DNA from: Gordius sp. MW1 | Lineage: Eukaryota; Nematomorpha; Gordioida; Gordea; Gordiidae | Assembly: GCA_964036665.1 (NCBI GenBank) | Contig: OZ038528.1 | Location: 7,880,501-7,944,500, forward strand | Reading direction: 5' to 3' | Length of the DNA stretch: 64,000 nt | Part shown: positions 4,871-63,663 of the stretch, piece by piece | Position numbering within the stretch: the stretch's first letter is position 1 | How the letters are laid out: each line of letters starts with the position of its first letter | Made by a program: the position numbers and the translations under genes | Notes under the pieces: model-generated | What the model was told of the DNA's origin: nothing | Database searches by the model: none | What the model saw: only the letters and a program-made list of their open reading frames with translations

Positions 4871-5429
4871 CAACAAATTTTACATTATATTATAGCCATG
4901 TCTTAACTTGGGATTGATTCTTAACAAATTTGTATGTCCGACATATAACAAAGCAGCGATTAACGAGATGCAAAAATTAAATAAATTGATTATTGATATG
5001 GAAGCGTTATAATCTAAATTTTAAATCTTAAATAAAAGAAATATAAAAAATATCTTTAAGTTTTGAATCGAATATTGGCACAAAAAATGAATATAAGCAA
5101 AAATTTGAATTTGAATTCGAAATTTAAATATTAAATTCTCCTCCCCCCATCCTCTATGTTTTTCCCTCTTGATCAATATTTGCTTTACAATGTCTAAGAG
5201 TTATTCTATTTTAGATGATGATAACATTTAAAAAAATCTTTATAACTTCTTAAATTAATTTTAAAGTTAAATGCCATAAGTTAACTGCTTAAGGTTGGAA
5301 TAACTATGTATTAAACAAATTAAGTCAGATGCCTAAAGTCACGTGAACCAATAAACTGTTGTATGCAACGGTAGTTTTGAAACTGATTTATTGTATCAAC
5401 AAGTTTAAATTTAGAATATAGATTTAATA
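4871..5429. other. Intergenic stretch upstream of the fuseless-like gene
   Basis: AT-rich sequence with no ORF or repeat recognised. It must contain the promoter and 5' leader of the gene starting at 5430, but no TATA or initiator motif stands out. Confidence 0.5.
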
Positions 5430-8355
5430 ATGTTCACAAATTTTTCATTTAAAAGATGGATCCAATTTATTATTCAACCTTTAGATTATTTAATAGCCAT
5501 ATTTTTAATAGGTCCATTGGTGGTAATATTTTGGCGTTCGGTTTGGGTTGCTCCTGACATAATTTCCATATCAAATCAGACGATTCAAATGATAGAAAAT
5601 GAAAAATCAAATCATTTAATGGAACCAAAAATGTTTCGGAAAACATTGATCCCCATTACCTCTTCGACAGATAATTCCATATTTGAGACAGACTATGAAA
5701 ATATCAAAAAAAATATGTTTAATAACAGCAACAATGTGTCGGATGATATAGATTTTCACTCAAAAATTTATGATTTCCAAAGACTCAGTCAAATTCAGAA
5801 ACGCCTGGCCGTCGCATTTTTTATTATCGGAACTATTTCCTCATTGCTAGCCGTTTTAGGGCAATATAAGATGCAGGATATCATGTCACCTTTGGATGAT
5901 TCAGAGGGAATAATTTATAAGTCCAACCAAAATGATATTGATAAAATAGCATCAAATGCTAAAAATTTATCTTTTATAGACTATAGAGATTATTGCAATA
6001 CCCCGATTACGACCCACAATTTAAAAGAATTAATTCACAACAGAGTTTATTCTTCTATGAATAAATTAAGTTTACCCACATCAATTATAGAGGATAGAGA
6101 TGCAAATGTCAAACATAACAAAAAAATTGCAAGTATTAGTAATTGGAGAAAAAGAATACTTTTCCCTATATACGCATACATAATGTCGGTTTTAGTAATT
6201 TTTCAATGGCGAGGCCTATGGAATTTGTTAAACATATTCGTGGGCTCAACTATCGTCCCAGCTTCAATAATATTTTCGATTGGAATATCAATTTTATTAG
6301 TAAGCGGCTGCGTAAATAATTGTATATCGGTTCCTTTAAATGTATTTACGGATTGGAATCTACAAGATGACATTTTTTTGATACCCACCTTTCTGAAAAC
6401 TCAAGTAAACCACTTGGCTTATTAAGTGAATAAGTTTTTTTGTATTCATAATAATTTCTCAAACACTAATGTGTATAATATTTTAAAAATAATAAAAAAC
6501 TTTGTATATTGTGTCAGGAAATTGAATTATTAATCAATCAAAATGCTTATTTAATTTGAGTTCTTTCGTTATTTTTTGTATAATATTCTTAAATTTTTTG
6601 AAAGCGTTTTTTGATTATCTAGTAGTAATAATTGTAAATTGTCTGTTGCAAAAGCAAAGCATCTATTAATATTTATAGAAAAATTCCTGCGAAATATTTT
6701 AAAATTCAAAATAAAATACAGTAACTTGAATATATTATTAAAATAGCCAGATAGGGATGGAATCTGGTCGTTTTTCAAAGACGCCTGTATAACGGTATTG
6801 CTACTCAACAATTCTGTCGTTCTTTGTTGGAATGGTGCATGGAATATTATTCAAGGATTAGGGAATCTGCTGGGTGTCCCTTCATCATATTGGGTTACTC
6901 TTTACTCGGCAGCAGTTAGCATACCCTTAGTAATTATGATCAAAATTATACTGTATTTCGCATGTCCTTCGATCTGTTACACGGATTACAGAAAAAAACC
7001 TCACAACTCAGGAGACAATTGCGAAATTGTCAATCAAAAATTATTTGATTTGTACGATGCAGACTTCAACAATACGGTAAATAAACAGAGGAAGGATAGC
7101 CCCCGAAAGCAATGCAATCCAGAATTTCAAAACTTAAGTGCGATGAAAGTGGTCGATCGAATAAACGTCGAGAAATCTTCAAAAAAAACTTTAAAATTTT
7201 CATACGTCTGCAAAAATTCATACACATTCCTGGCCAAATTATTTAAATTGAAACGCTTGATTAGCTTGCTCATTCGTCACAGCATATTAACATTGGCTTT
7301 TGCAGCAGTTTTGTCTTATTGGGCTGGTAAGTGAAGCTCTCTTATAAAGGTTTTTTTGTTTTGTTAAAATAACAGTGGTACGCTGAAATCATGGGTGTAG
7401 CCAAGGGGGGCAGGAAGGGATGGGTGCCCCCTCTAAATCCAAAAATTTCATAAATTGATCTATTTGCTCCTCCCTAAACATGCCCCTCTCTAATCGCAAT
7501 GCTGGCTACGCCCGTGGTTGAAATATTAATTTTTTGCCTATACATATTAATATTTACGTGGGCAAAAGCTTCTTAATATTAAAAATGTGTTATATTTAGC
7601 AACTTCATATATAAAAATAAACAAGGCCATTATTATGATTAATTTGAATTGCCAAGTTATACTAGTATAATAAATAATTCCTCATAGTTTTACTACAATT
7701 ACACGTTATAATTTAAACATTTGAAGCAATATCTATAATTATACATTAATTGAGTCGCTTAAAACCCTGAAATATGGCTATCAAAATTTGGTCCAAATAG
7801 CACTTATTTAAAATCACTCGTCTAATACTATGGCAGAGCGACACCCAATGTTGCCATCTTTAATATTGAATTGTCCTAAATTAGAAATCTTTGGCCAAAA
7901 TAACATTAGGCATATATCAACAAACGACAAAATGTTCTGGAATTACGTTGAAAAAATTAAATTTTTTTGTATAAAAATCAAAACACTTTTTGTTTCCGAG
8001 AATTTTCGTTGAAGACCTCTAATGCGGAATTGTAACTTCGGTTCGCCATTAAATAAAATAACTTTAGGATTTATTAAAAACTTATTAAAAATATACATTT
8101 ACAGGTATATGGCTCCTACTGGACTACTACGTTCATTTCGATTATTTCATCATGATGCACTACTTATCATTCCTAGCCTTAGTATGTATGTTTGCCTCAA
8201 ATTCGTTGATTTTCAGGGGCATAATCACGGATAAAGATTTCTTCAACACTAACAACGCCCCTAACACACGCTATGGATCACAAACACTACTAACCGTTAA
8301 GGATAATTGGCTGTTGCCTAAATATATAACCAGTTTTCCGTTAAAACTTCAATGA
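5430..8355 (+). CDS. fusl: Fuseless-like multipass membrane protein, three exons
   Basis: Three exons join in frame: 5430-6404, 6747-7326 and 8105-8355, giving 601 aa. Introns begin CAA|GTAAAC and CTG|GTAAGT and end AAATAG| and TTACAG|, and phases match at both joints. About eight hydrophobic segments are visible, including residues 13-38 (LDYLIAIFLIGPLVVIFW), about 130-155, 240-300, 335-395 and the last 100 residues. Repeated tryptophan motifs (FQWRGLWNLL at about 255-265, CWNGAWNII in exon 2, YWAGIWLLLDYYV across the last joint) and the overall layout match the arthropod Fuseless family. In Drosophila, Fuseless is a presynaptic membrane protein needed for calcium-channel organisation at neuromuscular terminals. 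A hydrophilic loop of about 90 residues precedes the last two segments. The ATG at 5430 is the first in frame, but an upstream exon cannot be excluded. Assignment is by motif memory, with no alignment run. Confidence 0.72.
7390..7516. mobile_element. MITE (CATGGGCGTAGCC family) in intron 2 of the fuseless-like gene
   Basis: The ends are CATGGGTGTAGCC and the inverse GGCTACGCCCGTG. The flanks GCTGAAAT (7382-7389) and GTTGAAAT (7517-7524) match at 7 of 8 bases. It is 127 bp long with no coding potential, same family as 1769-1937. Confidence 0.7.
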
Positions 8356-25519: not shown

Positions 25520-27526
25520 TTAATTTTGATGAAAATCTATAAAACAATTATTTTTGGGGGTAAAACATAAATATACGCCACATTTTTGGCAAGAAACTTT
25601 TGTAACAAATATGCATCCTGGCAGTTTACATCTACCCTTTTTATCATTATATTTCGGCCAGTGAGCTGTGAGGTCTTTCCTAACCTCTACATTAGGTAAA
25701 GATTGGGCTGGTCCTTTTTTACATTTATCCCGATAACCAGTCTCAACTGATTTTCTTTTGGGAATATTGCTTGTGGTGCATTTGCCATGTTTGCAAAGTA
25801 CTTCAGCCACCGAAATTTTAAATTTGTATAAGCTTAATCGATCCTTGGCTGCTATGGATATACTGTTATAATCCCGTTTGTATTGCAACCAAGAATTTAT
25901 AAGTACCATGTCGAATACATGAAATAATATTCGATGGTACCATTTTCTTGATTTAACAGGAATTCTACATAGAGAAATTAAAGAATCCATGAGATCAACA
26001 CCTCCCATGATTTATTATAAACTGTCACAATGTTTGGACATTTGATCATTATTTTCTCCTTTATTTTTCTATCGTATCTTTCGCAATCAATAAGAGGTTC
26101 AGCACCTACAAAGGTGCTCAATAATGTGACAGCACGGTTGTCGTGCCACTTGACGGAATTCAACTCGACTCCTTGAATTATTGTTTTTTTTGGAAACAAA
26201 AGACCCTCGTCCTTTTTTTTTCAACTCCTTGTCTGTTGGGGAGTTTACATTTGGGAGTCGATTACCTCTGACTGTAGCCGCGCTAAATATCCCTCTCTGA
26301 GCGAGGACCACTTGCAAATTTGGTGAAGAAAACCAGTTATCAAAAAATAATTTATAATTGATTTGCTGTGGTATATAAGAAATTAAACGTAGAACAGCAT
26401 TGCCACTTACTCCAACATCCGGCAATCCTTCTGCTGGTAGTATTTTCCCAGAGTATATTTCAAAATTATGGAGAAGGCCATCATCTCCGCATAGTAGAAA
26501 TACTTTATAGCCCCATTTTTTGGGCTTTTGGGGGTTATATAGCTTTAACCTGCTCCTCCCTTTGTATGGAATTATTTGCTCATCTACGCAAATATTTTCC
26601 CCTAAAGCCAAAGATTTTAGTATATTTGTGGTTATAGATATCAAGGGTCTAATTTTATAAAGTGGGTCATGGCCCTCACTTCCAAGTGGAATAAATTTGT
26701 CATTATCATTTATATGAATGCATGATTTGATTTGTTCCCAACGATTTAGGGTCATGACATCAGCCACCTTTGGCTGTCTTGTATTGGTGGCCCAGTAGAG
26801 ACGTGCTGTGGGAAGTTTAACAATTGCCATGTAAAAAAGAATTCCTATAAATTTTTCTAATTCATTTGTTGATAAATTCAAAGGTTTGTTGGAATTGCGT
26901 TGAATTGCATATAAATTTGATTGGTAAACAATTAGAGGTAATAAATCTTTGAGATATTGATTAAAATAATCCATTGGTTTTTTGACTTCATCAACATTTG
27001 GGTTTTCTCCTTTCCATTTTGGAATAACTAACGGTAATCTTGAATTTTTCCAAATCATTTTTTTCCCAGTTCCTTTTTTATTATTGATATTTTCATCCTC
27101 TTCCAATTCATCACTCTCATTGAAATCTAGATATTTATAGATTATATAAGAGCATACATTTTATACACAACAAATTATTTGCTAAGTATAATACCTCAAT
27201 GTAAATCATGCATAATACATAATAATTTACTAAAATCTAATGATCAATAAATATTTAGCATAAAACTAAGCATATCAAAATAAAAACTTAGTAATTTAAT
27301 AAAAAAAAAACTTAGCATTTCCTATACTTAGCATTAGGATTAAAAAAGATAGCATAAAATACTTACCATTTTATAAAAGACTTAGAACAAATTAAAATAC
27401 GTAGCTGTTAAATAACACCCTTTTAAATATACCTAAATCATTATTTTGGGTTGACAAATGCTCCTCATCAGACGATTCACTTAAATTTGAATCTTCACTA
27501 TCAATAGGTATGGTACCACAATTCAT
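25520..27526 (-). pseudogene. piggyBac transposase gene, one intron, two frameshifts
   Basis: Exon 1 (27526-27433) encodes an acidic Ser/Asp/Glu-rich start. A donor AG|GTATAT joins it in phase to the long exon starting at 27126 (acceptor ATCTAG|). The body shows the piggyBac core: ELEKFIGILFYMAIVKLP, ICVDEQIIPYKGR with the first catalytic Asp, LFFDNWFSSPNL with the second, and in a third frame MGGVDLMDSLI with the third. A C-terminal cysteine-rich domain (25700-25520: CKLPGCIF, CQKCGVYLC) is retained. Frame is lost near 26215 (a poly-A/T run) and again near 26000, so the gene is inactive as written. Piece lengths add to about 600 residues, normal for the family. TIRs and a TTAA duplication were not found. 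Confidence 0.88.
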
Positions 27527-28253
27527 AATTCTACAAATATAAAAGTCAATACCTTATTTGCATAATGTGTCTTTAAAGCAACGTACGTTTTTTACAACAT
27601 ATAATAATATATAATAATAATTATATATGTAAAATTTTATAATTATTTCTATTTACCTTTTATTTACCCAATTTTGATGTTTTGAAATTTGTGCAATATA
27701 TTATTTAACAAAATAACATGTGTACCAATAGAGAAGTTAAATTTTATAAAAAATCGCCATTGTAAAATAGGGTTTTAATAAAATGTGAAATTAAAAATAT
27801 ATAATAGGTCACGTGGGCCATATTAATATTCGAATCGAAGATATAGTTTGTGGCTTCAAATACACACCATGCACTTGAGTTAAAATTTATTTATATAATA
27901 TTTATTATATAATTTGTGGTATGTGTATTAAGATATACAGTATGCAGTAGAGGGCATTAGCATCTAGTAAGCACTGCTAGGTAGTTAATGAGTTTGATAA
28001 TATTGAAATTGCATTTGAATCTAAAGAAAAATCTTATGAGTAATTAAGCTATTACTCTGTTAACCGTCTATAGTTGTAGAGATATTTTCAACAAGTTTTA
28101 GACTTTTTATGCTAAATATTAAAAATGATAGTGTATGTTTGAATATATTTCTTAGAATGTTAGTTGTACTTGTAACCAAGCAATTTTTATCTTTAAGTAC
28201 AGCCCATTCAGTGCATTGACATATATCAGATAGCCTGCATCTATAAAACATTT
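27527..28253. other. AT-rich spacer
   Basis: This probably includes the 5' flank of the piggyBac copy. No terminal repeat could be matched with confidence, and nothing else was recognised. Confidence 0.4.
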
Positions 28254-29592: not shown

Positions 29593-30064
29593 GTTCCCTC
29601 TCCAATCTTAATATAATCATTTTCTCTCTCCACTAAAATTTAGGTAAATGATGATTATGCGTTAAACCATTTTCCATAATGTTGAAATAACATATGTTAA
29701 TTTGGCACGATATGTAGCGTTAGAATTCGCAATTTTGCGTTTCCAGGATTGTGCCTTTGAACCGCCTACAATTAACCCTTTTTCCGCTATCATTTGTTCA
29801 CTTGCATTGGAATGAAAAAAAGAAATTTGATTGAGCATTTTTTCCTTATGAAATCATCCCATCCTTCTATATCTACACCTAGTAATTCGTTGAGAGTTGA
29901 GTAGGATTCCCTAAATTTCAACTTTTTACTATCACCCACTTTGTTATGATATTTGCTTAGCGCGCGCAAAATGCAATAACCCTCTTCCCATCACATTCTT
30001 CCTTAAATTTAGTTATTTTAAATATTTTTAGAAATTCCTTGTTAAGGAATTCAATAGTGATGTT
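29593..30064. other. Spacer with no recognised feature
   Basis: Sequence between the hAT element and the BEL unit. No gene or repeat was identified. Confidence 0.4.
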
Positions 30065-30429
30065 TGTTAACACATAACATGGAGACAGACATTCATTGAC
30101 ATTTTTTCTAAAACACACACGTAATAAGTTATATTCACACATTCACACATAACAAAGTGAGATATTCACACATAACAAAGTGAGATAGCACACATTCACA
30201 CATAACAAAATTAGATAACACACAGATTCTTCATATATATTACATATTATATAATTATATTTCATTATACATATTTTTAGTATATTTAATAAAACTTCCA
30301 TAATTTACATATACATTTTTAACCACCTTTACTGGAGCTAACAAGGAATTACTACAGTTACAGTCTTTACTTAGTCCCAGCAACCACGAAAGAATAAAGT
30401 TGAAACTATCAGAACAAGTTGATATAATT
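30065..30429 (+). repeat. BEL LTR, forward copy
   Basis: It runs from TGTTAACACATAACATGG to GATATAATT, with internal repeats of CACACATAACAAAGTGAGAT. The 3' boundary is set where it stops matching the inverted copy. Confidence 0.8.
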
Positions 30430-30463
30430 GGTCCTTCGAGCCGGATAAAAATATGGTGCTGAA

Positions 30464-31965
30464 TTGTTTTGGGATATCATATGCACAGAACAAGTAAATC
30501 TTCGAAATGGATTAGTGTTTAAAAACACACAATTTGGTTGGATAATTTCGGGTCTATATTCTTTTTCTAATCCGCGGAATGCTAAAGTTACACAAACATG
30601 CAATTTGTCCACTCAACTATTAAATGAGCAACTAACTAATTTTTGGGAAATTGAAGAGATAACCCAACCAGTTTAGTACTCCAATGAAGAGCATCAATGT
30701 GAAGAGATATTCAAGGCTACTCACAGACGGAATTCATATGGCAGATATATTGTTGACCTACCACTAAAGGATCAGGTTTTGGGAAATTCTTACAAACAAG
30801 CTTTCATCCGATTTCAATCTCTTGAAAATAAGATGTTGCGGAACCCTGAACTAAGACGTGATTACACGAGTTTTATCCATGAATATCAACGTTTGGGCCA
30901 CCTAGCCCCTACTACTGAAACGAAATCACAAGATTTACCTGTTTTTTATCTGCCGCATCACGCCATATTCAAGATGGACAGCCTCACTACAAAATTGCGG
31001 GTAGTCTTTGACGGATCCGCTAAACTAACTTCTGGACTATCATTAAATGACACTCTGATGGTTGGTCCTAGATTCAGCAGGAATTAATATCAATAATATT
31101 AAGGTTTCGTAGTCACAATATCTCAATAACAGCTGACATCGAAAAAATGTACAGACAGATATTGATTAATCTAGCACATACTCAATTGCAGAGAATACTA
31201 TGGCGAGATGAAATATCACATCCGGTTCAAGCCTTTGATTTACTTACAGTTACTTATGGAACATCATCAGCACCTTACTTAGCTACTAAAGTTCTTCAAC
31301 AAGTGGCTAAAGATGAATGCAACGAGTTCCCAGTTGGAGCACGCGTAGCACAACGAGATTTCTATGTTGACGATTTATTAACAGGGGTACACAACATTTC
31401 AGAAACTAAAATTATTGTAGTACAAATACAGACCATGCTAAAAAAAGCTGGATTAAATCTAAGAAAATGGGCCACAAATTCCACCTTTTTATTCACTCAA
31501 CTACCATCAATTTCTAATGACGAAATCATACCTTTAGATAAGCATAGTAACATGAAGACTTTAGGTATCCATTGGAATCCACATGACAACATTCGATTCA
31601 ACATTAAAAATGAAATTACAAGGGATACTATATCAAAACGAAATGTTCTATCACACATTTCTCAAATGTTTGATCCACTTGGATTACTAGGGCCTGTATT
31701 GACAAGGGCTAGGTATTTATCAACTTTGGAAGCTTCAGCAATCTTGGGATGAAACACTTCCTAGTGATCTTAGCAATAAATGGACATCATTTAAAAATCA
31801 GTTTGACTTTTAAGCTCACTTGACATTCCCCGGCGTGTTATAGGCCATGACAACCCTTGAAGATAGAAATTCACGGTTTCTGTGACGCAAGCGAAATCGC
31901 TTATGGGGCATGTATATACATTCGATCTTCCGGTAATGATAACTGGTCCAGTAGACTCCTTTCTA
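30464..31965 (+). pseudogene. BEL/Pao pol fragment (A17 protease end, RT, start of RNase H)
   Basis: 30464-30676 carries the end of the A17 peptidase linker (NTQFGWIISG, FWEIEEI). After a stop, 30779-31087 begins the reverse transcriptase (LRVVFDGSAK then SGLSLNDTLMVGP). A frameshift follows, and 31147-31752 contains the palm, with DIEKMYRQI just upstream (from about 31137), TYGTSSAPYLATK and the catalytic YVDDLL (about 31363-31380), and ends with SHISQMFDPLGLLGP. A further frame gives an RNase H start (HGFCDASEIAYGACIYI, near 31870-31920). Integrase is absent. Confidence 0.88.
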
Positions 31966-32075
31966 ACCATGTTTAAATTAAATATACCTCTAATATGTTT
32001 ATTAATTTTAGTCTCTTGTTGTTAAAAAATTGAATTACTTAAAACTGTCATTAAAGGGCAATGCGGCAAGTATAA

Positions 32076-32449
32076 AATTATATCAACTTGTTCTGATAGT
32101 TTCAACTTTATTCTTTCGTGGCAGGGACTAAGTAAAGACTGTAACTGTAGTAATTCCTTGTTAGCTCCAGTAAAGGTGGTTAAAAATGTATATGTAAATT
32201 ATGGAAGTTTTATTGAATATACTAAAAATATGTAAAATGAAATATAATTATATAATATGTAATATATATGAAGAATCTGTGTGTTATCTAATTTTGTTAT
32301 GTGTGAATGTGTGCTATCTCACTTTGTTATGTGTGAATGTGTGAATATCTCACTTTGTTATGTGTGAATGTGTGAATATAACTTATTACGTGTCTGTTCA
32401 AGAAATTGAAAATGTCAATGAATGTTTGTCTCCATGTTATGTGTTAACA
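32076..32449 (-). repeat. BEL LTR, inverted copy
   Basis: Nearly identical to 30065-30429 in reverse complement. It has one longer internal repeat unit (extra TTCACACAT) and a small difference near GACATTTTC. The sequence on its inner side (CGCATTGCCC) is not the primer-binding site. Confidence 0.8.
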
Positions 32450-32454
32450 ATGTT

Positions 32455-38006: not shown

Positions 38007-39254
38007 TCACTTGTATTGGCAAAATCTTTTGGGCCAATGGACATGTCTGCCACTGCGAGTGGTTTTGACTGGTTGTTGTTCCTGCTCTGGTTCTTGTGAA
38101 ATAGGTTTCTTGAGGGAGGTTTCTTGATTATGTACCGGTTTCTTGCTTTCTACATGAGCGGGCTTCAATCGGTCGATTGATATGGAGTCCTTTTTTCCGT
38201 TTTTCTCGATTATAAAGTACTTTAGTCTACGAAGTAAGACTTTGAAGGGCCCATCGTAGGGTGGGGTGAGTGGTTTGCGTACTGTATCATTTCTGACAAA
38301 CACTTGCGGTGTTTCCCACAGGTATCGATTTACCTGTTCTTTTGTTTCTCCATGGTGGTGTGGCACGGGGTACGGCGACGCCATCATCGCTTCTCTCAAC
38401 TTCTCGACGAGTTGATGTACTTGTTCTGCTGATTGTTGCGTTGTTTCTTGTGAGAAATAATCTCCTGGAAGACTTAAGTTAGTCCCGTATAGCATTTCCG
38501 CCGGCGTGCGACCAATGTCTTCCTTGATGGTTGTGCGGATACCTAATAGAACAAAGGGCAGAACTACACTCCATTTTGTGTTTCCTGAGGCTTGTAACGA
38601 AGCCTTTAACTGCCGGTGGAAACGTTCGACTACCCCGTTCGCGGACGGGTGGTAAGCTGTAGTTTTGATGTGTTCGCATCCTAAAATATTCGCGAACTCT
38701 CTAAAAAGCTGTGACTGAAACTGGGATCCCCTATCTGTAGTAACTGTACTCGGAACCCCATAATTTGCCACCCAGTTCTTGATAAATTTGTCCGCGATAT
38801 CGGCGGATGTTTCTTTAAGTGGTATGGCCATGGGCCATCTCGAGAAACGGTCAACTGCCGTTAGCATGTGAGTGAACCCGTTGGAGGGTGGTAGTGGTCC
38901 TACTACATCCAAGTGGACATGAGCGAATCTGGCATCGGGTTGTTTAAAAGTACCTGGTTTCGTAATGGTGAGTCGGTTTACTTTACAACGTTGACATTTT
39001 AGGCATGTTCTTGCCCAGTTAGTGACGTCCTTGTTGATAGATGGCCAGACTACGCGACTAGTGATGAGCTTTAGGGTGGATCGAACTCCTGGGTGTGATA
39101 ACGAGTGAAAATGGTCAAAAACTGTTCTCCTCAGTGCGTCAGGTATGACCGGTCGAGGTTTAGTAGTCGACAAATCGCAAAGGATTTTGTTATCTGACCC
39201 TGGGATGGGTAATACTTGTAGTTTTAGTGAAGTAGTATCTTCTAAACCTTCCAA
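38007..39254 (-). pseudogene. Integrase region of CsRn1-type pol
   Basis: A 415-codon frame contains the HHCC zinc finger (FDHFHSLSHPG ... CLKCQRCK), then the DDE core: VHLDVVGPLPPSNG, the second Asp in TVTTDRGSQFQSQLF, and Glu in HPSANGVVERFHRQLK. A C-terminal chromatin-linker-like part ends PYDGPFKVLLR. It continues from the RNase H part across a frame change near 39270. It looks intact within itself and stops 71 bp before the 3' LTR. Confidence 0.9.
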
Positions 39255-39279
39255 AGACTTGTCGTTTTTTGGTGCTTGC

Positions 39280-41164
39280 TAATGTCGTCTAATTCTGGCA
39301 TTTTTGGAAGATTTACCGCGTCTACTCCTATCCGAGATAGAGCATCTGCTGTGTTTCCTTCGCCTTTAATGAAGCGAATGTCAGTGGTATATTGTGAGAT
39401 TAGGTCGAGCTGTCGTATCTCTCTCGGGAGTACTTATCAGGCTTAGCGTCAAAGGCGTATGTGAGTGGTTTGTGGTCGGTGTACACGGTAAATATTCGGC
39501 CTTCCAGGATGTGTCGAAAATGCTTGATTGCCAGGTAAATGGCGAGAAGCTCACGACCAAATGTACTGTATCGTGATTGTGTTGGCTGAAGTTTAGTAGA
39601 GAAAAACGCTATTGGTGTAGTCTCTCCGGCCATTGTGTGTTGTAATACCGCACCGACTGCTGAATTAGAAGCGTCTGTTGTTAGTGTAATTTGGGTTTCT
39701 GGACTGGTATTCAAAAAATTTAGCTTGGTAAAATTGATTAGAGCGGATTTTGCTGTGTCGAAAGCTTCTTCCTGAAGTTTATTGAACGCTATAGATTTTT
39801 GCGGATTCTTTAGTATGTCTGTCAACGGATTTAGGGTTTTAGCAATATTGGGCAGAAATCTTCGATAGAAGTTGGTCATGCCTAAGAATCTTCGGAGTTG
39901 TTTACATGAAACTGGCGTTGCAAAGTTTTTAATAGCCTCAATCTTCTCTGGTAAAGGAATAATACCTGCGGTCGAAACTTTGTGACCCAGGAACTCTAAT
40001 TCTCGCACTCCAAATTGACATTTTGCAGGGTTGATCCTGAGGTCGTACTTTTGGAGTCGTTGCAAGACGGTCTTTAGATGTACCTCGTGTTCCTCTTCTG
40101 AGCCGCTTGCTATAAGTACATCGTCTATGTACGCGTAGGAGTAATTCAGTCCTCGCAAAACTTCGTCTATGAATCTTTGGAACGTTTGAGCTGCATTTTT
40201 TAGACCAAACGGCATCCTCGTGAATTCGTAAAGACCGAATGGTGTCGTCACGGTTGTTTTACAGATGTCGTCCGGCGCTATTGGGATGTGATGGTAGGCT
40301 AACTAAATCCAGCTTGGAAAAAATTGCTTTTCCGTGAAGGTTAGCTGTGAAGTCGTGAATGTGAGGAATTGGGTACCTGTCTGGTACGGTGACTTTGTTC
40401 AAGGCTCTATAATCTCCACACGGACGCCAGTCACCTGATTTTTTAGCCGCCAAATGTATTGGTGCCGCCCAGTTGCTTTTAGATTTTCTTATGATTCCCA
40501 GTTCCAACTTATATTCAAATTCTTTCTTAGCAACATTAAGTTTTTCAGCAGTAAGTCGCCTTGGACGTGCGTACGGCCCTTTTGTTGCTATGTGGTGAAA
40601 GATGTCGTTGGTTGAAATTTGTTGAGTGAAATTTAAAGGAGTTAGGAGTGATGGAAAGTTGTTGATCACAGATTCCAACTTAGAGTCCTGACTCGAGAGA
40701 GCTATGCGGATTCCTAACGTTTGATGATGGGTGGAAATTCCTTTTGAAGTTACGTGAGTCAGACCATCAATTAATCGCTGGTTTTTGACATCTACGATGA
40801 TGTTGTATTGGTGCAAGAGGTCGGCTCCAATGATAGGGGTGTGTACCTCGGCGATCAGAAATAACCACTGTATTGGGCGTCTCAGACCTAGATTGATGGA
40901 CAACATCTTTTGTCCATAGGTAGAGATATTGCTATTATTGGCCGCCTGCAATACTGGACCATTTGGTACCTTAGGTGAATTGACGGGTCTTGGAATGATG
41001 GACACGTCAGCTCCTGTATCAATCAGAAATTTATGTCCTGACGTACGATCAATGATGTAGAATAGGCGACTTGGTTTATGACCGTTTCCGGAAGTCGCCT
41101 GAATGGAAAGGTCAGTTAGTTTTTTGACTGGGAGTTTGAGGTAAATGCACATGGTTGTGTGCAT
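39280..41164 (-). pseudogene. pol (protease, RT, RNase H) of the CsRn1-type element
   Basis: 41164-40259 holds protease ([16 protein letters not shown]) and the start of reverse transcriptase ([27 protein letters not shown]). A frame change near 40300 moves the palm to 40251-39400: FTRMPFGLKNAAQTFQRF, catalytic YIDDVL, INPAKCQFG, LGHKV. RNase H follows (TLTTDASNSAVGAVL, ELLAIYLAIKHF, VYTDHKPL). Another frame change near 39420 leaves the RNase H end (NTADALSRI) in a third frame, down to about 39280. Motifs are otherwise undamaged, so the breaks are recent or sequencing-related. Confidence 0.9.
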
Positions 41165-41964
41165 TTTTGAGCGTTACCCTTGAACTTGTGGTGATACCAA
41201 CAAATTTCTTCCCGACGGTGTCTTGATGTTGACCGTGATCTGCTTGAGGATCTCCAAACCTTTTTACTTTGTGGTGGCTGATTGACCAGCTGGTTTACTT
41301 TCAATTCCAACTGTGCGACCATTTTTACCAGTTCCTGGACTTCGTTTGTTTGGCTCATTTGAGGGCTTGCTATGGAAGCTACGCTGTTGGCCGTATATGT
41401 CTCGTAGATTTTGTCTGCCACCGCAGCCAAATGTGCCAGAGACTTTTCTTCTCCTACGCATGTTAAGACACCTGTTACCTCCCTTGGAAGTTTTTGTGTC
41501 CAAAGGGTTTTTAGAATTTTATCACTCATTTGATGTTCCCCGACAAGGCTTTTCAAATGCCTAAACAATTGGGACGGTGTTTTGTCTCCCAAATATATGT
41601 CCTTGAACAGCTTGTCTATTCATTTTGCTTCACTCTCACCCATTCTTTTGATTAAGGCTTGCTTTAACTCATAAGGGTTTTCATCTGGGATGTTAAGTAT
41701 AAGGTCGGCCACTTCTTCGGCTATCTCAACGGGGAGAGATTCTAAAAGGTAAGCATACATGACTCTTTGTGATGTGATTTTCCTAGTGAAAAATATTGCG
41801 TCGACCTGAGCTATCCAGATTTGGATGTTTCTGAGGTGAAATGTAGGTAGCTTGATGTATACTGGTGATGTGTTTGCCGTGGTGGGAGTGTTGGATGCTG
41901 TCTCAATGTAGAGAGTTGAATTGTCAGACGATTGTGTATCCATATCACGTCGGACGGTCACCAA
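41116..41964 (-). pseudogene. gag of the CsRn1-type element, one stop
   Basis: 41964-41620 encodes the N-terminal part (YIKLPTFHLRNIQIWIAQVD, then LLESLPVEIAEEVADLI) and ends at a TGA. The same frame continues to 41116 with the capsid C-terminus (LGDKTPSQLFRHLKSLVG, LKTLWTQKLPREV). A basic Ser/Arg tract follows, then the zinc finger with spacing [14 protein letters not shown] then PC. Apart from the single stop the protein of about 280 residues looks complete. Pol overlaps its end in a different frame, as in active relatives. Confidence 0.85.
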
Positions 41965-42165
41965 TGTGGTATTTAATTCACCACTTTAGTAATGTTTAAA
42001 CTATTGAGTTAGGCGAGTATGAATTTATTATAACAACAGGGAATCAAACAAACATATAAGCGAAACGCGAGCGAACGTTAATAATATGAACCGAGGAAAT
42101 TAAAGGAAGATAAAAACATATGTGTTTCGTCGACTTGCTACATTCTCAATGTTCATGTCGCTACA
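41965..42165 (-). repeat. 5' LTR of the CsRn1-type element
   Basis: Same length (201 bp) as the 3' LTR with two substitutions. It is directly adjacent to the primer-binding site. Confidence 0.92.
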
Positions 42166-43488: not shown

Positions 43489-44474
43489 AAGATCAATTAT
43501 AAATTTTGTTCATTTTTATTCCATAAAAAAAAAATTAAATATAAAATCATGTAATTATATATTGTATGAGATTCGTTGAATATATATTTAGCATTGGTAG
43601 AATTAAATTCTTAAATTAATAGTCTAGAGCATTTTGTTTAATAAATATTGAGTCAAATAAATTACCTTTTGGAGGTGAATATAATATATCCAACTTTCTA
43701 ACAAACCATTACTAAAATTATAATGTTAACTCTTTCTTTTTAAGATCAATTATAAATTTTGTTCATTTTTATTCCATAAAAAAATAAATATAAAATCATG
43801 TAATTACACATTGTATGAGATTCGTTGAATATATATTTAACATTGGTAGAATTAAATTCTTAAATTAATAGTCTAGAGCATTTTGTTTAATGAATATTGA
43901 GTCAAATAAATTACCTTTTGGAGGTGAATATAATATATCCAACTTTCTAACAAACCATTACTAAAATTATAATGTTAACTCTTTCTTTTTAAGATCAATT
44001 ATAAATTTTGTTCATTTTTATTCCATAAAAAAATAAATATAAAATCATGTAATTACATATTGTATGAGATTCGTTGAATATATATTTAACATTGGTAGAA
44101 TTAAATTCTTAAATTAATAGTCTAGAGCATTTTGTTTAATGAATATTGAGTCAAATAAATTACCTTTTGGAGGTGAATATAATATATCCAACTTTCTAAC
44201 AAAACCATTACTAAAATTATAATGTTAACTCTTTCTTTTTAAGATCAATTATAAATTTTGTTCATTTTTATTCCATAAAAAAAAATTAAATATAAAATCA
44301 TGTAATTACATATTGTATGAGATTCGTTGAATGTATATTTAGCATTGGTAGAATTAAATTCTTAAATTAATAGTCATGAGCATTTTGTTTAATGAATATT
44401 GAGTCAAATAAATTACCTTTTGGAGGTGAATATAATATATCCAACTTTCTAACAAACCATTACTAAAATTATGG
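43489..44474. repeat. Tandem array of about four 250-bp units inside the P-type element
   Basis: Units start at 43489, 43742, 43991 and 44241 with AAGATCAATTATAAATTTTG and contain TTACCTTTTGGAGGTGAATA and ATCCAACTTTCTAACAAACC. They are nearly identical apart from poly-A length and a few substitutions (43621-43630 versus 44370-44376), so the expansion is recent. The last unit runs directly into the THAP-coding ATG at 44471. Confidence 0.9.
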
Positions 44475-44587: not shown

Positions 44588-47500
44588 ATGTATGTATGTA
44601 TGTATTTTTTGCCCCGAAGACGCCCAAGAGCTTAGTAAGTGCAATCTAAGGTTGAGCCCCTTCTCACGCCAAATGGCGCATAAGGCCACGTTATTGCTAA
44701 CGTGTGATTTTATTCCTGTAACAAATGTATGTATTAAGCAGTGTAAATATGCATGATAATAAGTTAATGTACCTTAGGTGTGGGTTATGGTTAATAATTA
44801 GTCATTAGATTATGGGTAGTAAAAAAGTCATATTAGTGGAGGCGAGAAATATGGGTTTCCGAGAAATTTTTCCATGATTTTCTATCATTCATGATAGCTT
44901 GTAACGAGGTCCAATCTTTACCGAGGGTTTGCATGTCGCGGAATACTTTGTACAGCCAACTATTATTGCACGCGCGACCCCTTAATAGAGGAGGACGCCA
45001 AAACAGGGAAGATAAACAATAATTAGTTCCTTTTCTTCTTACCTGATGGGCTAAGAAGCCCCATTTTCTGGTTGAAATTATATTCTTTATCGGAGGAATT
45101 TTGCACCGAACCCACAAATCTTCGTTTGATATTATGTTAGGGTAGAAAATTCTACAAACTATCCGCAGCATTTTATTCACGTTGACTTGAAGTTTTCTTA
45201 GAGTAGGTGCTCTTAAAGACCAGGATTCACAACCGTATAACAGAACTGGTAGGATCATTACTTTGAAAATCCTGAGTCGTGTAGGGAGCGTCAAGTGGCG
45301 GGATCTCCATATGGCGGAGCAAGAGTGGAATTTAACCAGGGTACGTTGTAATTTTGACTCCACATCTACTCCGGCGTAGATGTCTGTTGTGAGGTCTACT
45401 CCTAGGTATCGAACTTTGTGGGACACATTAATAGGGTTGTTATTGATCAGTATCCTGTCCTCTGAGGGAACGTTTAGTGTTATCATTGCACATTTGTCGG
45501 CATTTATATATAGTCCAGCTTGTTTTGCCTGATCGGAGAATCTGTCCACCATAGATTGGGCCTTCTTTGTAGAGGTCGCCACCAGACATAAGTCGTCGGC
45601 AAAGATGAGTGAGGATAGCATAGTTCCGTTTAACGTAATGCCATCGGAGGCAAATATTGACCTTTTCATTATCAGATCCATCACTATAATAAAGAGAAGG
45701 GGAGACAATGGGCAGCCTTGTCTGACTCCTGTCGTCACGAGAATTGGGTCTGATAGATGATGAAGGTGAGAGACAACTACCTTCATGTCTGCGTATATAA
45801 TAAAAATGATTCTGATTATCTTCTTTGGTATTCCCAATAGGCATAGGGACTCCCATATATATAGGTGCTGTACAGAGTCGAAAGCTTTGGCTAAGTCCAA
45901 GAATACAAGGACAAGAGGGGTTTTGCTAGTACTGGAGATATCCATTATATTTCTTAGAGTGATAATATGTTCCGTGGTTGTGCGGCACCTCCTGAACCCC
46001 GCTTGATTGTGTCTAAGTATATCGTCTATCTGGTTGTAGAGTCTATTGTATAATACTTTGATAAAGAGCTTTGATTCAAGGTTTATGATTGTCACTCCCC
46101 GATAGTTGTTTGGATCAGAATGGTCTCCTTTCTTGAATAGTTTATTAAGGCGGCTTAACGACCAGGAGTTTGGTAATTCCTCATTATCCCAGACTTTGTA
46201 AAAAAGGTGGTATAGAAGTTTTCCGGATAGGTCCGAGTCCGCTTTAAGTGCTTCAGCAGTCATCCCCAACGGATCTGCTGCCTTATGTGATTTAAGAGTT
46301 TTGATCACTCTAACAATCTCGGAGATGGATGGTGGGAGTGTGTCAATCGGGAGCGGCGGAGGTCCTTTGAAGTTCTTAATAAATTCTTTATAGATGTCCA
46401 GTACAGGGACGGGCGAATGGGGGGATAGGATAGAACGGAAGTGGGCTTCCCAAGCTTTTGTCTGGTTTATTGAGTCGTTAGAGCTGTTGTCTGTTTTTAT
46501 GTTATAATGGGTGCGCTTAGCTAATGTATTGTATTTAAGGCTATCAATAATTGTAAAGAGGCGATGGCTATTGTTCGAACGTGCAGCTGATTCTGCCTCA
46601 CTTGCTTTAGAATTGATGAAAGTTATTTTGTCTTGTCGTATACTTGATTTGATACGCTTGCTAAGGGCAGACAAGCATGAGTGTTTGAACGGAAGATCCT
46701 TTTTGCAATGAAATATATTCGTCCTTGTCTTCAACAGGTCTAGTGTCTTTTGGGAAAACCATGTTTTCGTCTTGATGCGGTTTTTTTGCTTTGGTCGGTT
46801 CGCAAATATCTTTGATAACTCAATGCTGTGTTCGTTGACTGAGAGCTTTGGGAAAACAGTGTCTTTAACTTTAAGGAGAAGATTATCTTTAAACTCCAGA
46901 TTGCCTGTTATGCCTTGAGGTCTTATTATTGGGTTTCTGTTTGTACAGGGTACATGTAGAGTGGCTGATTTTATTATTAGTTCTGCGGTAATCACATGGT
47001 GATCAGCATTCACTGTAACGGGATCGTGAATTACTTTGAAGTTCTTGACGGTCTTAAAATGGCGTGACCTACAGAGCATGTGGTCAATTTGACTTGGTCT
47101 GGAGGTATTTGTACCACGGAAGGTAGCTAGCTGGTCGTTGGAAAGTTGAGAAAAGGTGGAAGCAATTCGCCACCTATATTCTTTACACCATTTTTTCAAG
47201 AAAATTCCATTCCTATTGTTGGAGCCCAACGTGTTTTGGCCGATTATGTTGGTGTCATCCCGGTCCGTAAGGGCAACAGAGGCATTGAGGTCTCCTATTA
47301 TTATTGGGACTGCCCTAGAAGTCAGATCTTTTGTTGCTTTTACAATAACTTTGAAAAATTCTTTAAGGATCTGTAGTTTGTATGATGCAGTTGGTGCATA
47401 AACATTTATAATTAACACTGTGCGAGCACCCACTTTTAGGTTTAGTATTATAATTCTATCGTTGACTCGGTTTAGGGTCAAAACAGTGAGACGCCTATTT

Positions 47501-48130
47501 ACCAGTGTGGAAACTCCTGAAGCTGGGTTGTCGGTAACCCCGAGGTGATAAAGTGTATAGTCGGGATATGTATCCGTTCTTGAGGAAGGAATTCGTGTTT
47601 GTTGTAGACATAGCACGTCTAGTTTATGTTTACGGGCAAACATGAGCATTAGTTGCTGGTTACCTTATATCATTAGTGAGTTGATGTTTATTGATCCAAT
47701 GTTTAATTTCATATTTCTTTATCTGATGGGGTACGCAGGTAGCAAGGAAGGTATATAGAAAGACTCGGTTCTAGTTTGAGGGTATAAATTCTTTGTAAGC
47801 CGTGGTGACAGTATTGCGTTTGCTGTTTGAGATTTTGTCAGAACAAGGGGAACTTAAAGATATCTTTATGCGTCGATGTCATATAAGACTGCTAAATGGT
47901 GATTATTCTTTACGGTTTTTAAATTTGGCGTTATGGAATTTTCCGTTGATTTAAAAAGTGGATAGAATTAGACTTAATCTTGGATTTTTTGTTTTTTATA
48001 GTGATTGTTTGTATTTTGTCCAGGATATTCTTATGAATGCTCTTCGGGGGAGGGATTTAGTATTTGTTTAACTATGAATAATGAAAATTAGAGATCTAGT
48101 ATCGAAGTCAAAAAGCGCGCGCGTGCTATT
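44588..48130 (-). mobile_element. APE-type non-LTR retrotransposon (LINE)
   Basis: The 3' end (low coordinate) is a GTATGTATGTATG tail in plus orientation, that is (CATA)n on the coding strand. ORF2 occupies 44833-47712. The 5' leader (47713 to about 48130) has no ORF1, and its limit is uncertain because no duplication was identified. It interrupts the P-type element. Clade not assigned. Confidence 0.75.
44833..47712 (-). pseudogene. LINE ORF2: endonuclease-reverse transcriptase with one early stop
   Basis: From the ATG at 47712 the frame reads MKLNIGSININSLMI, a TAA, then GNQQLMLM and 938 uninterrupted codons. An APE-type endonuclease comes first (LDVLCLQQTRIPS, IIIGDLNAS, RPSQIDHMLCRSRHF, NADHHVITAEL), then reverse transcriptase: NNYRGVTIINLESKLFIKVL, VFLDLAKAFDSV at about residues 575-590 of the open part, TTGVRQGCPLSPLLF, and the catalytic FADDLCLVA at about 680-690. 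The thumb ends LLYGCESWSLRAPTLRKLQ and a C-terminal region KWGFLAHQVRRKG follows. Only the single N-terminal stop prevents a full-length product, and translation from the ATG at 47649 would lose about 21 residues of the endonuclease. Confidence 0.9.
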
Positions 48131-48388: not shown

Positions 48389-49345
48389 CTAAATTTCTTG
48401 AATAAGCCGCCTAAGAGGATGTATTTCTCGATTTGACCTTCGAGGCCCTGCACTTTCTGTAACGATATCTTCAACGCCTTCGTCATCGCAATTTATTTCG
48501 TCATCGCTCTCTTCTTTAACATTCTTGGTTGGCTGGTATCGTTCCCTTATCTGGTCACTATGCTTTTTCACGGTTCTATTCATCGTAACCACGTAGGAAT
48601 AAGGTCCATTTCGCTTAAGGACTTTCCCCAGCCGCCATCCTTTTTTGATCTCATTTTTTATCCATACAGCCTGACCTGGAATAAACTCTCTGGTAACAGC
48701 TTTGTCCCTTTGCTTGTTTTCACTTTTCTCTGTCTTTTGTTCTATGTAATTGCCGACTGTTGGTTGTATCCAATCGAGTGACGTTTTTAGGTTTCTCCCC
48801 ATCATCACTTTCGACGGTGTTCTCCCAGTTGATGAGTGTTCACTGATTCTATACCCCATCAACACGTCAAGCATACATGACTCGGGATCTTTGGTATATT
48901 CCCTGCATGCTTGATATCTGCTCTTTATAGTTTTAATAGCTCTTTCCACCAATCCATTTGTTTTTGGATGATATGGCGTAGATCTGATGTGTTTTATGTT
49001 TAAAGATTTGCAAAATTGTTCCATTTCATAATTTCGAAACTGAGAACCGTTGTCTGTAACGATCTGTTTTGGAACTCCCCATCTTGCAAACCATTGGCGC
49101 ATGGTTTTAATGGTCGTTGTAGTGGTGGAGCTATTTTGTAGCTGCACTTCGACCCATTTTGAATATGAATCAACAGCTATGCACCAAAAATATCCATCTA
49201 TGGGACCCGCGTAGTCCATATATATACGTTCCCAAGGCTGTTCTGTTACATTCCACGAATACAGTGAAACTTCGGGCTTGTTGCATCTATTTTTTGATGA
49301 ATTTTTACTTCTTGTGGGATATTTAATCCGAATTTTATAATCCAT
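48389..49345 (-). pseudogene. Integrase of the second Mag-type element
   Basis: A 318-codon frame shows WERIYMDYAGPIDGYFWCIA with the first Asp, QIVTDNGSQFRN with the second and HPKTNGLVERAIKTIKSRY with Glu, then a basic tail ending in VTESAGPRRSNREIHPLRR. The zinc-binding N-terminus is missing because the deletion that removed reverse transcriptase also removed it. Its first codons overlap the end of the gag-protease frame. Confidence 0.85.
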
Positions 49346-50438
49346 GGTAATCCAAACAAGGGGACATCATCTGTTTTTGTAACCACAGCTGTCAAATTAT
49401 GATTAATTTTCCCCATCTGGACATTTAATAATGTTTTGCCCAGCGTTTCTACTGGCTGGTTACCATAAGCTTTGGGAGACATACATTTGGTCAATCTGGG
49501 TCTGCCTATTTGTTTCCACATTTTAAGGTTGATAAGACTAATCTGAGCCCCCGTGTCATATTCCATTATGAAATTTGGACCATTTAATTTAACCTCTATT
49601 GTGGCTCGTTTAGATAATTGACATACACGCTTGTTAGAATCACCAGAATCATCATTATCATTTTCGAGAGTAATTTGATTTAATACACTACGACAAGCTA
49701 TAGCAAAATGACCTTTCTTTTGACATCTGAAGCATGTTGCTGTAAAGGCTGGACAACGAAATTTTGCATGTTGTTTTAGACACCTTGAACATTTAAATAA
49801 TGTTTTATCATTCTTGTTGTGATCATTCAACTGTTTCTTAGTGTCATATTTTAGTTTAAAAAGTCTTTCCTCAGAATCACCATTTGTCTCTACTTCAGCT
49901 CCCTCCATACATAAAGCCATATTTATTATTCTTTCAAACGTAAGGGGCTTGCCTTCCTCATCTAGATTATCAGGATATTTTGTCTTAAGTTCCATCTCTA
50001 GTTGTTTAAATTTAAGGGCAAAGATAAAATGATCTCGGGCTCTTTCATCAAAGTCATGCTTGTATGCACATTTACTTAAGCATATTCTAATTCTTTTTGA
50101 CAATTCTAAAATACTTTCACCAGGCAATCTGCTTAAGTTCATCAAATCTAACCTATGAGCAAAAATAGTTTTCATTGGTTGATATCTTTGATATAAGGCC
50201 TTTTCAAGATTTTCCCATCATCATTTAAAGTCATGGGATATAAAATTTCCCTCAGTTCCTTGATTATTGGTAATCCTATGTATGCCAAAACTATTTTCTT
50301 TTTAACTATTGGACTAGATTTAATTCCTTTTGTGTCTAGGATGGCATCTAAATTGTACAGATAATCTTCAATTGAATGAATTTCTGGATTAAATTCAGCC
50401 ATGGATATTCTTTTCAGTTGCTCATCCATTCTTGGCAT
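49246..50438 (-). pseudogene. gag-protease of the second Mag-type element
   Basis: 50438-50172 encodes the gag N-terminus (MPRMDEQLKRISMAEFNPEI) and a second frame, 50175-49246, carries capsid, two zinc knuckles (CSRCLKQHAKFRCP; CFRCQKKGHFAIACR) and a retropepsin with FIMEYDTGAQISLIN. A frame change near 50180 separates the two parts. Right after the protease (VPLFGLPWIIKFGL) the sequence passes into the pre-integrase region and goes out of frame. Confidence 0.85.
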
Positions 50439-60810: not shown

Positions 60811-60814
60811 TAAA

Positions 60815-63663
60815 ATGATCCCAACTTTAATATCAATTGTTCAACTTATCCTCCTATAAATCAAGTTTTTTTATCCCACCTGTTAATCTCTAAACCCCTA
60901 TGCCCAACTTGTAAGCGACGAATATGCCTTGATAAACACAATTTTTTTTGGATTCATGGCCCTGTGTCTTCAAGGTGCCCTTCTTCTGGCAAATTACCTC
61001 CAACCTGCTTACCAATTCCACCCCTGGCTTCTAACTTTGAAGAGGCTCCCCTATTGCCAATCCCTAGCCCTGTCATCCCCCCACCCTTACAATGCTCCCC
61101 ACTAATTAAACAACCGCCTGACTTATCTTGGAGCAATTCTTTTTTAACAAATTCATTTCCTAATACTATCTCTAGAATCCCAAGAGGAGCCAGACCTTCC
61201 ATTCAACAATCTCTGCTAAATTTATTCACTTCTATTATCAAAAACCCTTATAACTTAACTAATTGGGACAAACTTTTTAAATTTCCATATCATATCCTTT
61301 ATGTTAGGGAACCTAATGAACATAATTTATCAAGTCTCATCAAGGAATCCCTTCTGTGTTTTAATACTGATGTTCCCATTACATGCACAAGCAAAACAAA
61401 ACCCTTTCCACCGGAATTTTCAATTAACCAAACTGCCAAGCACATCTCAAATAAAATCCATAATTTTAACCCAAAAAATGCCCTTAGAGCTTTTTATGAT
61501 AACAACTCAATAGCCCCTTGTTGCCCTGACTCTTATAGGAAGCTTAATCAAAAACACCCACCAGCATCCTCAGCCAGTAAATACCCCACATCTCCATCAT
61601 CAATAGTGCTTGAGTCTTCAGACATCCGTGAAGCCCTTAACTCCTTTCCTTTGGACTCCGCAGCTGGACTTGACGGATGGCGCCCAGTATATCTACAAGA
61701 TTTACTCAATTTAAATAATTTAAATACTGAACCTCTTTTAAATTCTATTACTTCTTTTTGTAATATCATCGTTAATGGAAAATTTCCTCATGAAATCATC
61801 CCTATTTTATTCGGTGCAAAACTAATCGCCATCAAAAAACCTGATAACTCAGTTAGACCCATTGCTATTGGAAGCCTTTTTCGCCGTATTATATCTAAGA
61901 TACTCTGCAAACTCATAAAACCCTCCTTGTCCGCTAAGCTCTGCCCTCATCAACTCGGCTTCGGAATTAAAGGCGGCTGTGAGGCAGCCAGCCATGCTGG
62001 CCGGATCACACTTCAAAATATTTCTACCGAGTCCTGCTTTGTTAAATTAGATTTCGCCAATGCTTTTAACAGTATTCGAAGAGAAACCCTTATTAACACT
62101 TTTTTAGCTGAATTCCCACAATTTTTAAATTACATTTTATTAAGCTATGGTTCTACAACCAAGCTTCGATTCGGCGAATACGTCATTGATTCGTCCGAAG
62201 GCATCCAACAAGGAGATCCATTAGGCACTCCCTTGTTTTGTTTGGCCATTCATAATTTAGTCGAGGCAATATCATCTCAGTGTACCCTCGATTTAAATGT
62301 TTGGTACCTCGACGACGCCACCCTATGTGGCTACCCGGAGGCGATTAGTAAAGCTACAGAAAATATCAACAATTTTGAACCCACTCTAAATCTTAAATTA
62401 AACACGAAAAAATGTGAAATCTCTCAGGCCCCTAACACTATTGACTTTCCCTTTTTTAAAACTTTTTTAGTTTTAGATAGAGAAAACATATCGCTTTTGG
62501 GATCACCTATTGGCGGTGAAAAATCTCTTTTAAATTTTCTTCATAAAAACCTCGAAATTTTAAAATCTAAAACGGAACTTTTATAATGCTTGCCTGCACA
62601 TCATTCTTTTTACATAATCAAAAACTATTTTAACATTTCAAAGATTAATCATTGTTTTCGCTCATCTGGTGCATTTTTACACCCAGAAGTTTTAAAGTCG
62701 TACGAAGGCTTTTTAATAACTTTATTAGAAAAAATTTTAAATTTAAAATTTTACACTAATAATTGGGTTCAGGCATCCCTTCCAACCAAATCTGGAGGAT
62801 TGGGAATTCGTCCTCCCGGCAGCATATCGCTAGCTGCTTTTATTTCCTCTTTTAAGTCGGTCCAAAACTTAATTTTTAATCTCACAAAACATGATTCCGA
62901 CCCTCTGCTAACTCAAGCTTTAGAGCTTTGGAATTTGAATGTCACACCCGAGACCGTTCAACCTCAAAGTACGAGACAAAAGGATTGGGATTCTGGACTC
63001 GTATCGCGCTCCGTTGATTACCTTTTATCGAGCAGCGACGATAGCCAGCATTACAACCTTAGGTCCCTCGCTTTTGATGGTTCCGGTCACGAGTGGCTTG
63101 AAGCCTATCCCAGCAAACTTTTGGGAATGCTGCTTGAAGACTTTGAGCTATCATATTCCATAGCTTTAAGGTTGGGGATCAGCTAGCAGAGAAAATGTCG
63201 AAACTGTCTTACCATTGTAGACGAATATGCTAGGCACCCTCTACACTGCCTAGCAAACAAATATAAATATGTTAGGCACACTAAAGCGAATTTATTAATT
63301 CAAGCTGCCCTCAAAAAGGCAAAAATCCCCTCAATTCTTGAGCCGTCAGATCCCTCTCTCGAGGGTAGGATGCGCCCTGACGGCTCTTCTCTAGTCCCCT
63401 GGCAAAATGGCCTATCCCTCAAATGGGATTTTACTTGTATTGACCTATTTGCCCCTTCCCATTTTAATTACGACCCTATCGCTACAGCAGAAGGGCCTAA
63501 AACTACCAAGTACTCTGCCCTTTTGGCATCCAATATTTTTATCCCTGTCGTTGCCTCGTGCTCCGGTTCCTTCGGTAAACAGGCAATGGGGTTTTTTAAA
63601 GAAGGGGAAAACGCTCACCGAAATCTAAAATTTCCACATCCTTTTTACTCAGGCAACAACTAG
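60815..63663 (+). pseudogene. Reverse transcriptase with C-terminal restriction-like endonuclease, two stops
   Basis: A single frame of about 950 codons runs through, interrupted only by TAA at 62584-62586 and TAG at 63184-63186. It starts with a Cys/His finger (PLCPTCKRRICLDKHNFFWI, near 60897-60957) and a proline-rich stretch. The reverse transcriptase follows: NSVRPIAIGSLFRRIISKIL, LGFGIKGGCEAASHAG, FVKLDFANAFNSIRRE with the first Asp, EGIQQGDPLGTPLFCL, and the catalytic VWYLDDATLCG. After the second stop come a Cys/His motif (KCRNC ... HPLHC) and a PD-(D/E)xK-type endonuclease: MRPDGSSLVPWQNGLSLKWD, FTCIDLFAPSH, EGPKTTKYSALL, FIPVVASCSG. The arrangement recalls R2-like site-specific LINEs, but the RT subtype was not placed. 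Confidence 0.8.

Follow-up and report, generated by a model that had tools for sequence, protein, structure and literature searches.

An inverted-LTR BEL/Pao element within a single target duplication in Gordius sp., probably formed by template jumps during reverse transcription

Described elements with rearranged or inverted LTRs

Complex LTR retrotransposon insertions in the Triticeae, each lying within a single target duplication (TSD), were ascribed to template switching by Sabot and Schulman (2007; PMC1950507). The complexes presented in that report contain three LTRs and two complete cores, and the two Angela complexes among them belong to Copia. Inverted LTRs have been described in autointegration products of Ty and retroviral elements, which are characterized in the account cited here as extrachromosomal circles (PMC4751563). 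They are also found in DIRS-1, where they surround the interior of an element that has a tyrosine recombinase and, according to the description cited, probably integrates in circular form (PMC5633606). Among the matches listed from the open-licence literature, as represented by titles and the beginnings of abstracts, none concerned an integrase-type LTR element integrated with its LTRs inverted inside one common TSD.

The element reported here occupies 30060-32454 of the window, the whole stretch of 64,000 nucleotides from Gordius sp. MW1 that was analysed, and has the layout ATGTT, LTR(+), PBS-like site, broken pol, LTR(-), ATGTT (Table 1). It is probably a rearranged BEL/Pao cDNA that was inserted once and that arose from template jumps of reverse transcriptase. 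In common with ordinary BEL/Pao elements it has reverse transcriptase (RT) and Peptidase_A17 regions, a possible DUF1759 gag, a putative primer binding site (PBS) and a short TSD of fixed length, in this case the 5 bp typical of BEL/Pao. Unlike ordinary BEL/Pao elements, in which the two LTRs are direct, the LTRs are inverted, there is no integrase region, and pol is found beside the PBS and ahead of the gag-like stretch.

The likeness to the Triticeae complexes described by Sabot and Schulman lies in a rearranged element with a 5-bp TSD and, if the origin favoured here is correct, in abnormal template switching followed by one integration event; the diagnostics common to both are the single TSD around the rearranged element and the similarity of the outer LTRs (PMC1950507). 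The element differs from those complexes in having two inverted LTRs, U3 at both outer ends and a core consisting of a small pol-gag patchwork, and neither a third internal LTR nor two complete cores were found in it. Similar to the autointegration products described, the LTRs are inverted and an LTR end is joined to internal sequence; however, the form is linear and is located in genomic DNA between target duplications (PMC4751563). The arrangement of inverted LTRs around an internal region is also that described for DIRS-1 (PMC5633606). In contrast to DIRS-1, the coding pieces are of the BEL/Pao type, the flanking TSD is of the kind generated by integrase and the inverted layout is apparently accidental; no tyrosine recombinase was detected in the element pieces scanned. 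The kind of event would be one already known from template-switch insertions, and the inverted-LTR copy is probably a one-off.

Arms, primer binding site and coding pieces

Table 1. Features of the rearranged element in window coordinates
Feature	Position	Strand	Remarks
Left target duplication copy, ATGTT	30060-30064	.	5 bp
Left LTR	30065-30428	+	U3 end outward; last CA at 30415-30416, then 12 nt to PBS
Primer binding site, TGGTCCTTCGAGCCGGAT	30429-30446	+	18 nt, adjoins left LTR
Presumed pol upstream of RT and into RT	30449-31087	+	one frame, single stop 30674-30676
Pol piece, RVT_1 and start of Peptidase_A17	31072-31752	+	Pfam E 3.8e-5 / 5e-5
Two further pol pieces	31703-31810, 31851-31973	+	Peptidase_A17 profile positions 31-60, 78-112; stops, frame changes
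Gag-like stretch	32012-32074	+	DUF1759 profile positions 28-44, E 0.063; weak, below cut-off
Right LTR	32077-32449	-	inverted, U3 end outward; homology through 12-nt spacer to PBS boundary; no PBS
Right target duplication copy, ATGTT	32450-32454	.	5 bp

All parts of the layout proposed in the sequence-only reading of this DNA, from LTR(+) through the PBS-like site and broken pol to LTR(-), with TGTTAACA at the outer ends and an exact ATGTT duplication, were found to be present. The inner junctions, which that reading had located near 30460 and 32050, are corrected to ~30446/30447 and ~32075/32076, the outer of the internal joins.

Alignment of the two arms revealed 355 identical bases at 362 ungapped positions, with 7 substitutions and 3 indels (4, 8 and 3 nt). 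The motif TGTTAACA is located at 30065-30072 and 32442-32449. Since TGTTAACA is palindromic and is about as frequent as chance predicts (2 copies in the window versus a chance mean of 2.12), the orientation of the arms is based on the whole arms and not on the end motif. A BLAST search of the window for further copies of the arms or the inside returned nothing beyond a 29-nt LTR match at 27883-27911. The divergence of the arms bears on an assembly mis-join or library chimera, errors to which inverted repeats are prone. A library artefact from one molecule folded back is disfavoured because the arms would then be identical, and they differ by 7 bases and 3 indels. Were two copies mis-joined, the match between the target duplications would have arisen only by chance (0.0021), and the window contains no N; an artefact of either kind is highly improbable.

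The ATGTT duplication abuts a U3 end on each side of the element. Moving both assumed LTR ends by 1 or 2 bases, whether away from or into the element, destroyed the match: none of the 4 shifts gave a duplication. The chance of two random 5-mers matching, based on the 5-mer composition of the window, is 0.0021 (0.0024 for ATGTT itself), roughly double the ~1 in 1000 estimated from the letters at first. This composition effect is in favour of a rearrangement after insertion, or of a truncated plus-strand element and a minus-strand LTR that had inserted independently and were then joined, with ATGTT matching by chance; BEL/Pao copies often decay and nest. Nevertheless, the chance of a match is small even so, and LTR(-) considered alone is without a duplication, the bases to its left failing to match ATGTT at all 4 candidate left ends. 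For an inversion, a breakpoint would be needed exactly at the LTR/TSD boundary, and homologous LTR recombination after insertion should not alter which LTR end meets the flank. Taken together, rearrangement after insertion or the joining of two insertions is considered quite unlikely. A separate solo LTR(-) was also considered, and was rejected for want of a matching duplication around it.

A search tolerating up to 3 mismatches located the 18-nt PBS at a single site in the window and in none of 100 shuffles. The PBS presumably represents a copy of the end of tRNA-Tyr; no tRNA gene for comparison with the PBS was found in the 64-kb window. The end of the left LTR is placed, tentatively, at the CA preceding the PBS, a conserved CA being the terminus given for retroviral att sites (PMC12789967). 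With the LTR ending at this CA, the spacer of 12 nt between LTR and PBS is long compared to that of Achilles, an olive-fly element for which a legend gives a tRNA-Tyr PBS ~2 nt after the LTR (PMC4580426).

In the right arm, homology to its left counterpart ends at 32076, the base aligned with 30429, where the PBS begins. A right LTR that has no PBS and is homologous exactly as far as the LTR/PBS boundary, opposite a left LTR with an 18-nt PBS, is a new feature of this element. If the LTR ends at the CA, the right arm retains a 12-nt spacer that is absent from an integrated 3' LTR; these extra bases would then have to derive from unprocessed cDNA or from a 5' LTR. Minus-strand cDNA primed by tRNA starts at the PBS boundary, and plus-strand strong-stop DNA usually has its 3' end after the 18-nt tRNA copy. 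The right inner end would be the start point of tRNA-primed minus-strand DNA, again if the LTR ends at the CA. The natural ends of strong-stop DNA could account for both outer joins, exactly for the right join and, provided that the upstream frame is pol throughout, to within a few bases for the left.

Scanning of seven element pieces against Pfam identified pol domains of the BEL/Pao type. Peptidase_A17 was matched in three pieces (E 5e-5, 2.2e-4 and 5.3e-9), two of them above the curated cut-off; the match in 31703-31810 (E 2.2e-4) is just under the cut-off, and that in 31851-31973 has the E of 5.3e-9. RVT_1 was matched in one of the seven pieces with an E of 3.8e-5, below its curated cut-off. 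An integrase domain is expected between RNase H and the 3' LTR; the matches stop in the Peptidase_A17 region, and no integrase family was matched in the element pieces scanned.

The two most upstream pol pieces gave no Pfam match. They are assigned to pol because they share the frame, precede RT and have a presumed resemblance to pol. To the left, the frame at 30449-31087 is closed off by a stop codon (30446-30448) overlapping the PBS end; a limit of this sort is no proof of the point at which pol starts. The pol frame so assigned lies close behind the PBS, where a leader and gag would normally sit.

A further new feature is the gag-like stretch that appears to follow the RT and Peptidase_A17 pieces just before LTR(-). 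It is suggested by weak matches to DUF1759 located after pol (E 0.063 and 0.073, and 0.15 for a longer piece), all of which are below the cut-off; an evident chance match in the same kind of Pfam scan, Defensin_1, reached E 0.05. Chance is less likely for the gag-like match because the sole family returned is DUF1759, which we take to be the gag domain of BEL/Pao elements themselves. The pol pieces and the gag-like stretch have the same direction, in an order that is wrong for BEL/Pao. Should the gag match be genuine, gag would come after pol, opposite to the usual arrangement; an extra join would then be located within 31962-~32020, bringing the internal joins to at least three.

Origin of the joins

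In an autointegration product, an LTR end processed at CA would be joined to internal sequence. Here the right LTR joins the gag-like sequence, itself a weak match, with the arm homology running 12 nt beyond the last CA. A join of internal sequence to U5 is of the autointegration type, and inverted-LTR products of that type have been described for Ty (PMC4751563). The element might derive from the fusion of two cDNAs, either integrase-mediated or end-joined, in which the unprocessed U5 end of one was joined to the gag of the other in opposite orientation and the outer U3 ends were integrated. Recombination between LTRs would later have left a solo LTR(-), with which the full-length single LTR(-) is compatible, and the part missing after the PBS would have been deleted. 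Trimming to the CA is expected of integrase, yet the homology extends past the last CA; this objection falls if the LTR truly ends at 30428, in which case there is no spacer. The autointegration products described in the account cited are circles that have no free ends to integrate (PMC4751563), and the fusion requires the extra recombination as well as a separate deletion that stopped near the end of the PBS. Fusion of two cDNAs is accordingly judged unlikely as the origin of the element.

Template jumping, the preferred origin, would have proceeded in the particle, where DNA synthesis is proposed to have jumped between templates during reverse transcription. The pol copy would have been connected at one end to a plus-strand strong-stop DNA, at the 3' end that followed the 18-nt tRNA copy, and at the other end, past a short gag stretch, to a strong-stop DNA ending at the PBS boundary. 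The second strong-stop DNA would be without a tRNA copy if the tRNA had already been removed or had not been copied. The product would be a linear DNA with U3 at both termini, and integrase may have inserted it by its two U3 ends in a single normal integration that generated the 5-bp ATGTT duplication, followed by decay of the inserted copy. The inverted arms, the duplication, the presence of a PBS on the left only and the position of the right join are evident from the sequence; the strong-stop origin of the arms, the order of the jumps and the use of two U3 ends by integrase are what we infer for this locus. Points against template jumping include the weak gag match, the length of the 12-nt spacer, the lack of a Pfam match for pol directly behind the PBS and the surplus of pol lesions when 1 LTR indel is counted; in addition, three jumps in one molecule are a lot, and the 0.2% chance of the TSD match is not zero.

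Two origins had been offered in the sequence-only reading. The first, an aberrant cDNA with two U3 ends usable by integrase, provides the best fit, with ATGTT adjoining U3 on both sides. The second, inversion after insertion, is disfavoured by its need for a break exactly between LTR and TSD.

If template jumping is the true origin, the element preserves a failed strand transfer in genomic DNA, with joins that mark the ends of strong-stop DNA, and shows that a BEL/Pao integrase is capable in vivo of inserting DNA with U3 at both ends. More copies of this kind would make a genome-wide record of errors in reverse transcription.

Age, hairpin potential and surroundings

Six lesions were counted by hand in pol, comprising 3 stops and 3 frame changes. 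When the 3 LTR indels were counted, the number of pol lesions expected from the LTR divergence was 5.1 and the probability of six or more was 0.41, consistent with one age for all parts of the element. Counting 1 LTR indel alone lowered the expectation to 2.2 pol lesions and gave a probability of 0.027 for six or more, which would imply either that pol already carried some of its damage when it was inserted or that the arms were homogenised afterwards. A template that had already decayed is unneeded with 3 LTR indels and is suggested only with the count of 1.

The arms are predicted to pair over 356 bases with an energy of -555 kcal/mol, versus -65 kcal/mol for a control stretch. Inverted LTR pairs of this kind would be natural sources of hairpin RNA. 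It is conceivable, though very unlikely, that the inverted-LTR form constitutes a small non-autonomous family mobilised by BEL/Pao particles with strong-stop DNAs serving as end adaptors, and that a read-through hairpin could yield small RNAs against the parent family.

Relatives were sought in viral contigs with two pol pieces, the LTR/PBS junction, the LTR core and the left and right outer joins, and in prokaryotic genome contigs with the LTR core and one pol piece; none was found in either. A tblastn search of a plasmid collection with one pol piece also gave no match. Short patterns from the pol pieces matched 3 and 7 stretches in the viral contigs and 23 in the genome contigs, none of which was confirmed. 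The collections searched were viral, prokaryotic and plasmid and the queries were pieces of the element, so that absence from them says little about the host.

Several other elements are present in the window. A PiggyBac-like transposase (DDE_Tnp_1_7) is encoded on the minus strand at 25523-27160 by two open pieces that share a frame. At 38010-41985 (-) there are LTR-retrotransposon frames with few breaks, with RT, RNase H and integrase in the scanned part at 38010-40302. The minus-strand region 48392-50217 contains a degraded LTR element in which an aspartic-protease frame (49249-50217) overlaps an integrase frame (48392-49366) that is read in a different frame; since no space is left for a reverse transcriptase, this element is an internal deletion derivative. 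A LINE-like frame of 943 aa at 44836-47664 (-), open throughout and containing endonuclease and RT domains, is possibly a young copy. A reverse transcriptase frame is located at 60814-63663 (+), with RVT_1 in 60814-62583 and two more in-frame open stretches, each past a single stop. The window also contains a tandem array at 43489-44472 with a period of 249, 3.9 copies and 97% matches, and a frame at 5415-6422 (+) that matches Fuseless (PF15993, E 6e-15) and is apparently a host gene.
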